From NCBI RefSeq assembly GCF_038397775.1, contig NZ_CP151650.1, forward strand, positions 2,790,001 to 2,854,000: DNA of 64,000 bases, in the 5' to 3' direction. Shown piece by piece: positions 4,269 through 38,602 of this stretch. The position numbers and the translations under genes are program-made. The stretch comes from Pseudomonas sp. RC10. GTDB lineage: Bacteria > Pseudomonadota > Gammaproteobacteria > Pseudomonadales > Pseudomonadaceae. Each line of letters begins with the position of its first letter. The stretch's first letter is position 1. The notes under the pieces were generated by a model that worked only from the letters and a program-made list of their open reading frames with translations, had not been told where the DNA came from and did no database searches.

Positions 4269-4358
4269 TGTAGGAGCCGGCTTGCTGGCGAAGGCGGTGG
4301 GTCAGACACGAGCAGGGTGCCTGATACACCGTCTTCGCCAGCAAGCCGGCTCCTACAA
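4269..4358. repeat. REP doublet, GCCGGCTTGCTGGCGAA class
   Basis: Left arm TGTAGGAGCCGGCTTGCTGG and right arm CCAGCAAGCCGGCTCCTACA form an inverted pair of about 90 bp. The class matters because the IS110 element at 21.5 kb interrupts another copy, and this intact copy shows what the uninterrupted right arm looks like. Confidence 0.9.
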
Positions 4359-20673: not shown

Positions 20674-21363
20674 ATGAGCCAGACCGCAACCATTCTGGTG
20701 ATCGACGACGAACCGCAGATCCGCAAATTCCTGCGCATCAGCCTCGCCTCACAAGGCTACACCGTGATCGAAGCCGGAACCGGCACCGAAGGCCTCACCC
20801 AGGCGGCGCTGAACAAGCCGGATCTGCTGGTGCTCGACCTCGGTTTGCCGGACATCGACGGACAAGACGTGCTGAGCCAGTTTCGCGAATGGTCGACCGT
20901 GCCGGTGCTGGTGCTGTCCGTGCGCGCCAGCGAGGCTGAAAAGGTCCGCGCGCTCGACGCCGGGGCCAACGATTACGTGACCAAACCGTTCGGAATTCAG
21001 GAGTTTCTGGCGCGGATTCGCGCATTGTTGCGGCAGGCACCGGACACCGGGCAGGCCGACTCGGCGCTGGTGATCGGCCAGCTGACCGTGGACCTTGCGT
21101 ATCGGCGGGTGCTCCTGGACGGCAACGAAGTCGCTCTGACCAAAAAGGAATACGCGGTGTTGGCACAACTCGCGCGGCATCCGGGGCGGGTCATCACCCA
21201 GCAGCAATTGCTCAAGGACATCTGGGGCCCGACCCATGTGGAAGACACCCATTACCTGCGCATCGTCGTCGGGCACTTGAGGCAGAAACTGGCGGATGAC
21301 CCCGCTGCACCCCGGTTCATCCTGACCGAGGCGGGGGTGGGGTATCGGTTGGTGGGGGGCTAA
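20674..21363 (+). CDS. kdpE: Two-component response regulator KdpE
   Basis: 229 residues. The receiver domain carries the acidic pair DDE (11-13), the phospho-acceptor Asp55 (LVLDLGLPD) and Lys in KPFG, followed by an OmpR/PhoB-type winged helix (LTKKEYAVLAQLARHPG, YLRIVVGHLRQKL). It activates kdpFABC under K+ limitation. It is separated from kdpD by 219 bases that hold a REP doublet, wider than usual. Confidence 0.94.
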   Translation: MSQTATILVIDDEPQIRKFLRISLASQGYTVIEAGTGTEGLTQAALNKPDLLVLDLGLPDIDGQDVLSQFREWSTVPVLVLSVRASEAEKVRALDAGANDYVTKPFGIQEFLARIRALLRQAPDTGQADSALVIGQLTVDLAYRRVLLDGNEVALTKKEYAVLAQLARHPGRVITQQQLLKDIWGPTHVEDTHYLRIVVGHLRQKLADDPAAPRFILTEAGVGYRLVGG

Positions 21364-21423
21364 TGTTTGCTCGGGACCGCACCCTTTTCGTGGAGGCCAC
21401 TCAGGTTCCGGACATGACCTTGG

Positions 21424-21508
21424 ACTGTGGGAGCCGGCTTGCTGGCGAATGCGGTGGACCGGTCAGAGATAAATGGGCTGACCGAACGCTTTCGCCAGCA
21501 AGCCGGCT
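21424..21508. repeat. REP doublet interrupted by the IS110 element (left part)
   Basis: The left arm CTGTGGGAGCCGGCTTGCTG and the first part of the right arm, TTCGCCAGCAAGCCGGCT, are present. The sequence then switches to TGTATGTTTAG instead of the expected CCTACA. The missing end of the arm, CCTACAAGGG, lies at 22681-22690 beyond the transposase gene. Compare the intact copy at 4269-4358. Confidence 0.88.
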
Positions 21509-21519
21509 TGTATGTTTAG

Positions 21520-21705
21520 ACTTGATGGGGTGGGAGGGACGGAAAGCCGAATCTGACTCTAGCCAGTACAGACCGTTGGGAGACTTCCAGCCCCACCCTG
21601 TCACCTACAAGCGCCGATATGGAATGCATCGGCCTGGACCGACGATAGAAGCAAGCCAGCGCTTACGGTGAACCCCCAGCAAGCTCTTCAACCCTAACTC
21701 GGAGG
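21520..21705 (+). ncRNA. Candidate bridge RNA of the IS110 element
   Basis: The leader before the transposase can fold into two successive stem-enclosed loops. GGGTGGG (21528-21534) pairs with CCCACCC (21592-21598), and AAGCGC (21609-21614) pairs with GCGCTT (21659-21664), with an inner hairpin CCGAT/ATCGG (21614-21632). Loop 1 contains AAGCCG (21544-21549), identical to the left target flank, and TTGGGAG (21576-21582), which can pair with the right target CTCCTAA-like sequence with wobble. Loop 2 contains ATAGAA (21645-21650), identical to the left donor flank at 22672-22677. This two-loop guide layout is that of IS621 bridge RNAs. The exact ends and guides are inferred. Confidence 0.55.
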
Positions 21706-21712
21706 GTGTGAC

Positions 21713-22675
21713 ATGGCAATCCTTGATGCAGCGGCGATTGTGGGTGTCGATGTGGCGATGGCGGAACTTGTCACCGCTCAGCGTGGTGTGGATAAAACTC
21801 ATTGTTTGGTCAATGAGCGAACTTCGATTCACCACTGGCTCAAGACATTGCCTCAAGGCAGTGCCATCGCCCTCGAGGCGACCAATACCTACCATCTGGA
21901 CCTAGTGGAAATGGCCCATGACATGGGGCACCTGGTGTTTGTCGTCGATGCGGCACGCGTAAGCAAATATCGAGAAAGTCTGGGCAAGCGCGCCAAAACA
22001 GATGCGTGCGATGCACATCTGCTGGCTCGCTATCTGGAAAAGGAAGGTGACGAGCTGCGTCAGTGGAGCCCGCCACCCCAGTTGCACACCCAGCTCAAGC
22101 ATCTGCTGCATCGCAGGGCCTCGCTGGTCAATAGCCAGACGTCACTGCGCCAAGGCTGGAAGGATGAAAAAGACCTCAGGAAGGGGTTCGAGAAGTTGAT
22201 GCGTCGCTTCAGCCATCTGATCAAAGATATCGAGAAACAGCTCAAGCAAGTGCTGATCAAGTCCGGTGAAATGGATCAGGTCAAACGTTGCCAGGGCATC
22301 GAAGGCGTCGGGTTCCTGACCGCCACAGCGCTGTTTGCGGCATTCCTTCGAGGCGAATTCAAAAACGTAGATGCGTACATCGCCTATCTGGGGCTGGATT
22401 TGCGGGTGTCGGATTCCGGGAACAAATCCGGTCGCCGCCGGCTAAGCAAGAAAGGCGACCCCGAGGTACGCCGGCTAGGCTACAACGCTTCAATGGCCGC
22501 CTGCCGATCGGCGACATGGAAACCGTATTACGAGAAGAAAATAGGCGAGGGGAAAGCCAGAACTGAAGCGTTGACGATATTGAGCAGGAAGCTCGCAGGG
22601 GTGGCCTTCTCGCTGATGAAGAAACGGGAAGAGTACGACTCTACGAAACGTTTGGGGGTTGCCCCCCAAACATAG
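21713..22675 (+). CDS. IS110-family transposase (DEDD recombinase)
   Basis: 320 residues. The N-terminal RuvC-like DEDD site is visible as D13 (GVDVA), E55 (ALEATNTY), D97 and D100 (KTDACDAHLL). A helical middle (about 115-190) leads to the C-terminal Transposase_20 domain with QGIEGVGFLTATAL, a conserved Ser in SDSGNKSG (S235 or S239) and LSKKGDPEVRRLGYNA. The frame is complete and all expected catalytic residues are present. IS110 recombinases act with an RNA encoded in the element. SD GGAGG precedes ATG 21713. Confidence 0.93.
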   Translation: MAILDAAAIVGVDVAMAELVTAQRGVDKTHCLVNERTSIHHWLKTLPQGSAIALEATNTYHLDLVEMAHDMGHLVFVVDAARVSKYRESLGKRAKTDACDAHLLARYLEKEGDELRQWSPPPQLHTQLKHLLHRRASLVNSQTSLRQGWKDEKDLRKGFEKLMRRFSHLIKDIEKQLKQVLIKSGEMDQVKRCQGIEGVGFLTATALFAAFLRGEFKNVDAYIAYLGLDLRVSDSGNKSGRRRLSKKGDPEVRRLGYNASMAACRSATWKPYYEKKIGEGKARTEALTILSRKLAGVAFSLMKKREEYDSTKRLGVAPQT

Positions 22676-22728
22676 AATCTCCTACAAGGGATCGGGGGTG
22701 CAGGCCAAATCCTCTTCCATCGCTGAAC

Positions 22729-22765
22729 CTGTGGGAGATGCCGGAGGTTATGTCGGCACGGGCCG
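22729..22765. repeat. REP half-site, GATGCCGGAGG class
   Basis: CTGTGGGAGATGCCGGAGGT followed by a diverged TATGTCGGC resembles one arm of the repeats in the 37.5-38.5 kb array. The inverted partner is not obvious. It lies between the IS element and the patatin gene. Confidence 0.5.
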
Positions 22766-22804
22766 CGATCGGGCGAAGGCGGTGCATCAGTCTCACCCTT
22801 GCTC

Positions 22805-23866
22805 TCAATGCTCCCGCTCATACCGATCCAGCGTATCCCGCGCAATCTCCCGTCCCAGTGCGATCAGCTCCGGGGCCTTGTAGAACTCGAAAAACCGGCA
22901 CACGCGCTTGGGCACGTTGATCAGGATGTCTGGCGGATACCCGGCGATCTTGTACTGCGCCAGGGACGTCTGCATTACCTCGAAACTCTGGTTGATCAAA
23001 TCGAGCAGGGACGCAGGCCCGACGTTGTCGATGATCACCGAGCCGCTGGCCGACTTCGGAGCGCCCGGTTCGGTCGGCGCGGCGGCGGGTTGCTGGCCTT
23101 GGGGATCAGCAGCGTCGGCGTCGTGTTGGCCCAGCCAGGAGTCGGGCAGGGTGGCCGCCGTGGTCTTGAGGCTGTCCTGTTCCAGACGCAACACATCGCC
23201 CGCCGCCACGTCCATTTTGCGGCGAAACGGCAGGTGCGAGCCGATGGAGTTGATCAGGGCGTCGAAGCGTTTCTTCACGGCTGGCGGGCGTTCGATCACC
23301 GGCAAGTGGTACTGCTTCTGGTTGGTGGAGTTGAGGTTGACCGCCACGATAAGGTCGCAGTGGCTGGACACCACCGGCACGATGGGCAGCGGATTGAGCA
23401 GGCCGCCGTCCACCAGCGTGCGATTGCCCTGAACCACCGGGGTGAACAGGCTGGGAATCGCCGCCGAGGCACGCATGGCCGAGTGCAGGTTGCCTTCCTG
23501 GAACCAGATTTCCTGTTGGTTGGTGAGGTCCGTGGCCACGGCGGTGTAGGGAATACGCAGGTCTTCGATGTTGATCTCGCCGACGATCTCCCGAATCTGC
23601 CCGAAGACTTTTTCCCCGCGAATCGCCCCCAGCCGAAAGCTCACGTCCACCAGCCGCAGCACGTCGAGGTAATCCAGGCTCTCGATCCAGGCTTTGTATT
23701 CCGGCAGTTTGCCCGCTGCGTAAATCCCCCCGATCACCGCGCCCATCGAGCAACCCGCGATGCAGGCGATGTCGTAGCCGCGCCGCTCCAGTTCTTCGAT
23801 CACCCCGATGTGTGCATAGCCTCTGGCGCCCCCGGACCCCAAGACCAGCGCGATTCTTTTTTTCAT
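22805..23866 (-). CDS. Patatin-like phospholipase (RssA/YchK-like)
   Basis: 353 residues. The glycine-rich oxyanion motif GSGGARGYAH (10-19), the serine lipase motif GCSMG (Ser40) and the catalytic Asp in DGG (Asp153) form the patatin Ser-Asp dyad. Such proteins hydrolyse acyl chains from lipids. No signal peptide is visible, so it is probably cytoplasmic or peripheral. A Gln/Pro/Ala-rich linker (about residues 245-280) precedes a C-terminal part not seen in short RssA proteins. Its in vivo substrate is unknown. Confidence 0.87.
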   Translation of the reverse strand: MKKRIALVLGSGGARGYAHIGVIEELERRGYDIACIAGCSMGAVIGGIYAAGKLPEYKAWIESLDYLDVLRLVDVSFRLGAIRGEKVFGQIREIVGEINIEDLRIPYTAVATDLTNQQEIWFQEGNLHSAMRASAAIPSLFTPVVQGNRTLVDGGLLNPLPIVPVVSSHCDLIVAVNLNSTNQKQYHLPVIERPPAVKKRFDALINSIGSHLPFRRKMDVAAGDVLRLEQDSLKTTAATLPDSWLGQHDADAADPQGQQPAAAPTEPGAPKSASGSVIIDNVGPASLLDLINQSFEVMQTSLAQYKIAGYPPDILINVPKRVCRFFEFYKAPELIALGREIARDTLDRYEREH

Positions 23867-37537: not shown

Positions 37538-38543
37538 TTGTGGGAGACGCCGGAAATACGACGGCAGCGACAGCGTCGTGTCAGGGTTGAATGCATTCGC
37601 TGACACACCGCCTTCGCGGCCGTCGCACAGCTCCGGCTGCTCCCACAGGTTTTGTGCCAGGCCCCACTTCCGTAGCGACGGAGATTCTGTAGGAGACGCC
37701 GGAGGTACGACGGCTGCGACAGCGTCGGGTCAGGGTTGAATGCATTCGCTGACACACCGCCTTCGCGGCCGTCGCACAGCTCCGGCTGCTCCCACAGGTT
37801 TTGTGCCAGGCACCACTTCCGTAGCGACGGAGATTCTGTAGGAGACGCCGGAGGTACGACGGCAGCGACAGCGTCGGGTCAGGGTTGAATGCATTCGCTG
37901 ACACACCGCCTTCGCGGCCGTCGCACAGCTCCGGCTGCTCCCACAGGTTTTGTGCCAGGCCCCACTTCCGTAGCGACGGAGATTCTGTAGGAGACGCCGG
38001 AGGTACGACGGCAGCGACAGCGTCGTGTCAGGGTTGAATGCATCCGCTGACACACCGCCTTCGCGGCCGTCGCACAGCTCCGGCTGCTCCCACAGGTTTT
38101 GTGGCAGGCACCACTTTCGTAGCGACGGAGATTCTGTAGGAGACGCCGGAGGTACGACGGCAGCGACAGCGTCGGGTCAGGGTTGAATGCATTCGCTGAC
38201 ACACCGCCTTCGCGGCCGTCGCACAGCTCCGGCAGCTCCCACAGGTTTTGTGCCAGGCCCCAATTACGTAGCGACGGAGATACTGTGGGAGACGCCGGAG
38301 GTACGACGGCAGCGACAGCGTCGGGTCAGGGTTGAATGCATTCGCTGACACACCGCCTTCGCGGCCGTCGCACAGCTCCGGCTGCTCCCACAGGTTTTGT
38401 GCCAGGCACCACTTTCGTAGCGACGGAGATTCTGTAGGAGACGCCGGAGGTACGACGGCAGCGACAGCGTCGTGTCAGGGTTGAATGCATTCGCTGACAC
38501 ACCGCCTTCGCGGTCGTCGCACAGCTCCGGCTGCTCCCACAGG
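37538..38543. repeat. Tandem array of seven REP doublets, period 149 bp
   Basis: The unit GGAGACGCCGGA begins at 37543, 37692, 37841, 37990, 38139, 38288 and 38437, exactly 149 bases apart each time. Each unit has a left arm (GGAG-CGCCGGAG-CGACGGC), about 55 bases of centre (TGAATGCATTCGCTGACAC), an inverted right arm (GCCGTCGCACAGCTCCGGCT, then GCTCCCACAG) and, except in the last, a linker of about 42 bases (TTTTGTGCCAGGC, GTAGCGACGGAGATTCTG). Copies differ by scattered substitutions. No gene lies within it. Confidence 0.95.
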
Positions 38544-38602
38544 TGCGGTGTTGGTCGCAGACTTTGAGCCACCCCCGCTGCGGCGTGCCCGGTTCCGGCT
38601 TT

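Follow-up and report, generated by a model that had tools for sequence, protein, structure and literature searches.

The IS110-family element found at positions 21509-22680 (+ strand, 1,172 bp) of the window, by which the whole 64,000-nucleotide stretch of DNA analyzed here is meant, is very probably an autonomous insertion sequence, the leader of which would give rise to a bridge RNA that directs the recombinase to a CT dinucleotide within one class of REP arms. This reading draws on the exact limits of the element and of its identical genomic copies, on their single target position, on a co-varying RNA structure, on the covariation of guides and targets among relatives, and on the choice of sites within individual hosts, all of these being comparisons of sequence. 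The features on which the argument depends are the following.

21426-21508 (no strand assigned): interrupted REP doublet, made up of an intact inverted arm and the left-hand part of the split one, up to AGCAAGCCGG plus CT
21426-21441 (minus strand): intact partner arm of the same REP doublet
21507-21508 (+): left copy of the CT core dinucleotide
21509-22680 (+): IS110-family element, with six identical genomic copies
21509-21684 (+): putative bridge RNA region, matched over its full length by a held-out covariance model of 36 relatives (143.4 bits)
21521-21524 with 21680-21683 (+): outer stem, CTTG with CAAG
21544-21549 (+): left target guide AAGCCG, equal to the target top strand left of the core
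21552-21572 (+): hairpin within the target-binding loop (TCTGACT ... AGTACAGA)
21576-21582 (+): right target guide TTGGGAG, the complement of CTCCCA in the right half of the target
21611-21614 with 21659-21662 (+): donor-binding stem-loop, GCGC with GCGC
21645-21650 (+): candidate left donor guide ATAGAA, equal to the element right end at 22672-22677
21652-21655 (+): right donor guide candidate CAAG, complementary to the core CT plus TG of the left end
21713-22675 (+): IS110 recombinase of 320 aa, with DEDD RuvC-like and Transposase_20 domains
22671-22680 (+): right end CATAGAAT with the right copy of the CT core (22679-22680)
22681-22690 (+): right half of the split REP arm (CCTACAAGGG)
Target form for the element: GCAAGCCGGCTCCCACA

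The element, its ends and its recombinase

The left flank ends in CGCCAGCAAGCCGG-CT (to 21508), the element itself closes with CATAGAAT-CT, and CCTACAAGGG follows from 22681. When joined, the flanks give AGCAAGCCGGCTCCTACAA, which over that length is identical to the intact arm at 4269-4358, as had been claimed in a sequence-only reading of this DNA, and the observation made there, of an element inserted in a REP with CT at both edges and a candidate bridge RNA, is confirmed. The layout comprises a leader of 204 bases (21509-21712, the length given in that reading as well), the coding sequence at 21713-22675, and five bases from there to the right end, with the tnp stop codon (22673-22675) falling within the donor end at 22672-22677. 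A long non-coding left end and a short right end of this kind are characteristic of the IS110 group. The long non-coding stretch that follows tnp in the IS1111 group is absent here.

The genome, a single contig of 6.71 Mb, holds six copies of the element, each of 1,172 bases and identical to the letter, and all six occupy one and the same REP position with the CT core at both junctions, the core dinucleotide on either side and the single type of target site (6/6 copies) being further traits of the IS110 group. The target shared by the copies is GCAAGCCGG-CT-CC(C/T)ACA, with CCCACA in five of them and CCTACA in the window's copy; sites unrelated to REP arms, which would have spoken against the earlier proposal, are used by none. 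A blastn search of the plasmid collection with E up to 1e-5 gave no match to the element, and among 194 genomes taken as relatives a match at E up to 1e-120 occurs in the window's own genome alone.

The recombinase has the DEDD RuvC-like domain and the C-terminal Transposase_20 domain with a conserved Ser that are expected of the IS110 group (PF01548 at residues 26-145 and PF02371 at 194-273), and it scores 155.2 bits, above the cut-off of 140, with the NCBIfam model "IS110 family RNA-guided transposase". Only two PDB sequences match it at E up to 0.001, those of ISCro4 (1.2e-25) and IS621 (5.2e-25, phmmer). Residues D13, E55, D97, D100, and S235, the catalytic positions by analogy with IS621, are invariant in all 23 aligned recombinase sequences. 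The nearest protein is 97% identical, and the next closest (P0002-P0013) come from short contigs, except for P0011, a partial sequence from Pseudomonas sp. NPDC090202. Judged by those relatives that carry a name, the host is probably a Pseudomonas.

Predicted structure of the leader RNA

Taken alone, the leader folds no better than shuffled sequences (z -0.66, with 45/200 shuffles as good), and its structure therefore rests on comparison with relatives. Covariation was counted over 37 distinct leaders including that of this element (alignment A2) and over four helices, namely the outer stem together with the G/C run inside it, the target-loop hairpin, the closing stem of the donor loop, and the inner stem of the donor loop. 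Across these helices 98.2% of cells pair, and compensatory changes are found in 8 of the 22 counted pairs, in 25 cells; none of 500 shuffles reaches these values of pairing, pairs and cells, while the count of further pair types was equalled by 61/500. Sliding the partners by 1-3 columns lowers the pairing to 26-44% and leaves 0-2 compensatory pairs. The target-loop hairpin at 21552-21572 has compensatory changes in four of its seven pairs, and the outer stem has one pair with a compensatory change, in 2/37 sequences. Two sets of pairs were kept out of the count: those proposed by RNAalifold between columns 109-111 and 127-129 (right guide and 3' stem strand), because they use guide bases, and those of the outer strands of the target-loop stem, where the alignment is ambiguous.

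As the structure had been derived in part from the same 37 sequences, a held-out covariance model was added, built from the 36 rows without the window's element. The leader is its sole match up to E 10 in the 64 kb, at 143.4 bits, and the model also finds the other five copies. An Rfam search of 21000-23000 yielded nothing credible, one sub-threshold miRNA match being located on the REP palindrome. The predicted leader RNA has the two internal loops and the conserved structure that are the mark of a bridge RNA. Both of the stem-loops described in the sequence-only reading are present, and its expectation that the stems co-vary among homologues holds; what it had not listed is the outer stem (21521-21524/21680-21683), which encloses them both.

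A scan of 21400-22800 found no sigma-70-type promoter, the scan for promoters and terminators being uninformative. If the ends of the element are joined, an 8/12 promoter match (TTGCCC-18-TATGTT) spans the junction, and the integrated left junction scores as high; measured against the consensus, the putative promoter at the junction is weak, and it does not stand out.

Guides of this element

The left guide AAGCCG corresponds to six of the seven target bases before the core, with the mismatch adjoining the core, and the right guide TTGGGAG pairs with the right half of the target, a pairing that includes one G-T wobble in the window's own copy, where the right half reads CTCCTA. The two segments had already been assigned to the two sides of the target, which stands, with the correction that each fits over some six bases only and that the mismatch and the wobble have to be allowed for. 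In most relatives the left guide lies in one register, whereas here the match is one base nearer the hairpin (6/7, against 4/7 in the usual register), and the right guide contains an additional T, absent from every other row of alignment A2, so that each target guide pairs over about six bases rather than seven. This is weaker than in many relatives (6/7 on the left here versus 7/7 in 12/32 guide windows, and about six on the right). Given that the element still has six identical and correctly placed copies, it appears that such slipped guides are tolerated, or were at the time when the element spread.

The level of chance agreement was gauged by scoring the guide loops, in whatever register, against all 6,314 CT sites on both strands of the window. 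For the C form of the target, which five of the six copies have, the scores are 6 and 6, a level reached by 4/6,314 sites including the intact arm at 21433; the T form, that of the window's copy, scores 6 and 5 with the wobble uncounted, which is reached by 25/6,314 sites, the intact arms at 4276, 4350, and 21433 among them. In the donor loop, ATAGAA (21645-21650) does equal 22672-22677, as had been pointed out before, and together with CAAG it fits the ends of the element, bearing in mind that the locus parser itself demanded a fixed right end.

Guide-target covariation among relatives

Relatives were drawn from 80 loci of named genomes (the best 80 of 134 relatives) and from 398 genomes of the genus, 53 of which had a match and supplied 80 stretches. 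Out of 195 loci examined, 183 were parsed, two of these being without flanks; where the 12 unparsed loci were looked at, L106 and L181 excepted, they proved to be cut contigs or to lack the left end. Because the genome sets overlap, the remaining 181 loci collapse by flank to 150 distinct insertions, with 37 guide pairs.

For 32 distinct guide windows, the left guide agrees with the seven bases before the core of its own target at 6.06 of 7 positions (best of three registers, counts ignoring shared ancestry), as compared with 4.24 (sd 0.16) for shuffled assignments and 0/20,000 shuffles as good. In one fixed register the values are 5.78 and 3.79, again with 0/20,000, and the same result (0/20,000 each) is obtained when the windows are roughly divided, without recourse to a tree, into two sets of 16 according to their first two letters. 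Over the 150 insertions, the left guide matches 7 bases in 69, 6 in 57, 5 in 20, and 4 in 4. On the other side of the core, where the right flanks of the relatives' insertions, among those listed, read CC[C/T]AC, the right-guide letter facing the third base is A in seven guide pairs, all seven with T targets, and G in 30, of which 29 are with C and one with T (Fisher 7.8e-7 for A versus G, ancestry ignored). The left and right guides are thus complementary to opposite strands of the target and co-vary with it, as is required of a bridge RNA, and the proposal that the loop-1 guides follow the target flanks from insertion to insertion is upheld, the choice within hosts agreeing with it.

Choice of sites within host genomes

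The problem of shared ancestry was reduced by setting the sites used against those that the host genome itself provides. In 33 genomes of the Pseudomonas group, five classes of REP left arm were counted, and likewise the right halves of C and T type; 32 of the 33 have intact REP sites of the counted classes, with a maximum of 1,979 in a single genome. At most three copies per host (six for this genome) were taken as insertions, and 14/82 were left out, being in none of the five counted classes or in a host with fewer than 20 counted sites. The guides of the other 68 match their targets at 6.235 bases, versus 5.847 expected from the host pools (sd 0.071, 0/20,000), and the best-matching class is used by 50/68, with 33.1 expected. 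Elements with G-type right guides account for 73 C and 4 T insertions of 77, where 59.6 C would be expected (0/20,000). With its own guide each element contributes to an excess of 26.4 matched bases; when guides were swapped between families, the excess was 1.7 (sd 5.0, 0/5,000). By host, the excess is positive in 25/30 and negative in 5/30, and in five hosts (G128, G139, G205, G290, and G364) none of the one or two counted insertions is in the best-matching class.

For the genome of the window, the five-class pool (AAGCCGG at 118/128 sites) understated the choice available, and the pool was therefore recounted without preset classes over 800 kb in 40 spaced stretches (L203-L242). Among the 197 sampled sites ending CTCC[C/T]ACA, the bases before the core are GAATTCG in 70, AAGCTCA in 40, AAGCGCG in 12, AAATTCG in 10, and AAGCCGG in nine, and it is in this last class, 9/197 of the sample, that all six insertions are found, an outcome expected at about 1e-8 for independent random draws. 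The left guide is matched at 6 or 7 of 7 bases by 10/197 sampled sites, and one of the 197 matches it at 7/7, better than the class used. The exact 16-mer CAAGCCGGCTCCYACA has 118 intact occurrences in the genome, 43 of them with C, and none when read backwards. Five of the six insertions are at C sites, compared with C in 49/136 counted sites (P 0.025, or 0.035 for a narrower pool), which is no more than suggestive of a preference of this element for C sites.

These results bear on a model in which the recombinase reads the REP palindrome or hairpin by protein-DNA contact alone and the likeness of the leader to the target is coincidental. Such a model would accommodate the fact that the targets, here and in many relatives, are palindromic repeat arms with a nearly constant right half, but it is very improbable, as the GAATTCG, AAGCTCA, and AAGCGCG sites (70, 40, and 12 of 197) share that right half, also occur in the window as inverted pairs with a spacing of about 72-77 bases, and are nevertheless used by 0/6 insertions, and as the choice across hosts tracks each element's own guide and not a swapped one. 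Protein-only recognition is thus largely contradicted by the guide swaps and by the site count of this genome. A still slimmer chance attaches to the view that the leader serves chiefly for regulation, as a 5' UTR with an antisense RNA, and not as a guide. The model for this is ISPpu9 (Asr9), a REP-targeting IS110 element described as having a tnp 5' UTR that is structured and 244 nt long, along with an antisense sRNA of ~180 nt (PMC8450116). Regulation and guiding can coexist, so the two compete only if regulation is taken as the sole function, and regulation does not predict that the letters of loop 1 should track the DNA flanks over 37 guide pairs. Finally, spread of the six copies by homologous recombination or segmental duplication between REPs instead of transposition, to which the letter-identical copies, the abundance of REPs, and the doublet spacers to the left of L002 and L005 (mutually inverted, as one would expect of repeats) might point, can practically be dismissed, given that the right flanks differ past CC(C/T)ACA and the left flanks past the REP doublet, that L003 has no partner arm within 90 bases to its left, and that both junctions are exact to the base in 6/6 copies. 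An RNA guide with a class of Pseudomonas REPs as its natural target, the proposal of the sequence-only reading, is in turn supported by the covariation of the stems, the REP-arm sites, the covariation of guides with targets, and the choice within hosts.

Other REP-associated sequences and related elements

In the 800-kb sample, sites of the classes AAGCTCA (40/40) and AAGCGCG (12/12) occur exclusively with T and those of CCGGCGT (7/7) exclusively with C; in a tandem array of the window, CCGGCGT is mostly with T. This array (37539-38544) consists of 6.8 copies of a 149-bp unit with 96% match and is made up of REP-like units with CTCC[C/T]ACA ends on both strands. Outside the window, the same genome has a second IS110 element in seven copies (L007-L013), with 28% protein identity to the first, the site of which, GCAAGCC(A/G)GCTC-CT-AC, is REP-like and overlapping, with the core three bases to the right. 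The leader of this second element holds CAGCTCCT, which equals the left target plus core at its CCAGCTC sites, and the covariance model of the first element gives no match to it. Among the relatives, those of Pseudomonas sp. KNUC1026 (L058-L061, L077, and L093) are 1,371 bp long, about 200 above most others, the extra length seemingly 3' of tnp, and their left guide AGCCGCC matches the target at 7/7. Four further loci (L103, L107, L113, and L114, from G100, G254, G216, and G011, respectively) have one in-frame stop each within the aligned range.

Proposed mechanism of targeting

In the published IS110 scheme (PMC11208160, PMC11187229), the element leaves as a circle and its joined ends drive the guide RNA, which pairs with these ends through its donor loop and with the target through its target loop before recombination at the core brings about insertion. 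Applied to the present element, this would mean that transcription of the leader yields a bridge RNA of ~165-175 nt, in which an outer stem encloses one loop for the target and another for the donor, and that the recombinase holds the joined ends of the excised circle via the donor loop, with the target loop choosing the genomic site. The left guide AAGCCG would pair with the bottom strand left of the CT core; pairing of the right guide, TTGGGAG, would be with the top strand and extend rightwards from the core. Recombination at CT would then insert the element into the REP arm GCAAGCCGG-CT-CC(C/T)ACA. Transcription, the length of the RNA, formation of the circle, and catalysis are assumed here by analogy with IS621 and relatives, and the targeting half of the mechanism appears strongly supported for this element by the comparisons described above.

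Hosts with many near-identical REP sites and elements with differing guides amount to a natural experiment on target choice. Their REP sites differ by one or a few bases, and choice can be related to what each genome has available, a comparison that sidesteps most of the ancestry problem. The relatives offer guides that have been reprogrammed in nature while the RNA scaffolds stayed similar, and the mismatches and wobbles that they accept provide natural tolerance data to set beside the IS621 screens. It seems rather likely, if well short of certain, that REP-targeting IS110 elements can serve in this way as a natural, genome-scale assay of bridge-RNA specificity, in which the left guide picks the class among sites with shared right halves, the right guide tells C from a G-T wobble, and even the slipped guides of the present element have led to 6/6 insertions in one class.

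Comparison with known systems

The mechanism as such is already published, with REP-targeting IS110 elements of Pseudomonas described in 2006 and bridge RNAs and seekRNAs in 2024, neither of which the sequence-only reading mentions as published, and the element itself is a further example; what is added is the within-host guide test. Among the papers listed in a literature search, none appears from its title and the opening of its abstract to make a within-host comparison of REP classes; most subscription papers and preprints fall outside that search, so that this is weak evidence. Guide-target covariation is given for 5,511 pairs (PMC11208160), and natural reprogramming between related elements is also reported (PMC11187229).

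The known elements nearest in habit are those of Pseudomonas. ISPpu9 and ISPpu10 have seven of seven copies each in REPs, with 2-bp direct repeats, according to Tobes and Pareja 2006 (PMC1525189), and for ISPpu10 of Pseudomonas putida KT2440 a bridge RNA with target and donor guides was predicted (Extended Data Fig. 10c of PMC11208160). The present element thus shares with ISPpu10 the insertion into REPs and a predicted bridge RNA (PMC1525189, PMC11208160), and a protein labelled ISPpu10 by one source (P0025) is 55% identical to its recombinase, a figure that does not refer to the reference ISPpu10. ISPpu9, which is likened by description, is an IS110 element in Pseudomonas REPs with a structured leader and small RNAs (PMC1525189, PMC8450116). 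Its sRNAs are described in PMC8450116. A second sRNA lies downstream of tnp in 5/7 of its copies; in the present element only five bases separate the stop from the end.

IS1111-type seekRNA elements such as ISPa11 resemble it as RNA-guided DEDD transposase systems that target Pseudomonas REPs, but differ (PMC11187229) in that their long non-coding region follows tnp and that they have subterminal repeats of 11-13 bp, whereas the long region lies upstream here. IS621 of E. coli (PMC11208160) likewise has a DEDD plus Ser recombinase, a leader RNA with target and donor loops, a CT core, and a REP target. It is nonetheless a remote relative by protein (5.2e-25) with a different REP and different guides, and in contrast to IS621 the left guide of the present element matches six bases, with the mismatch beside the core.
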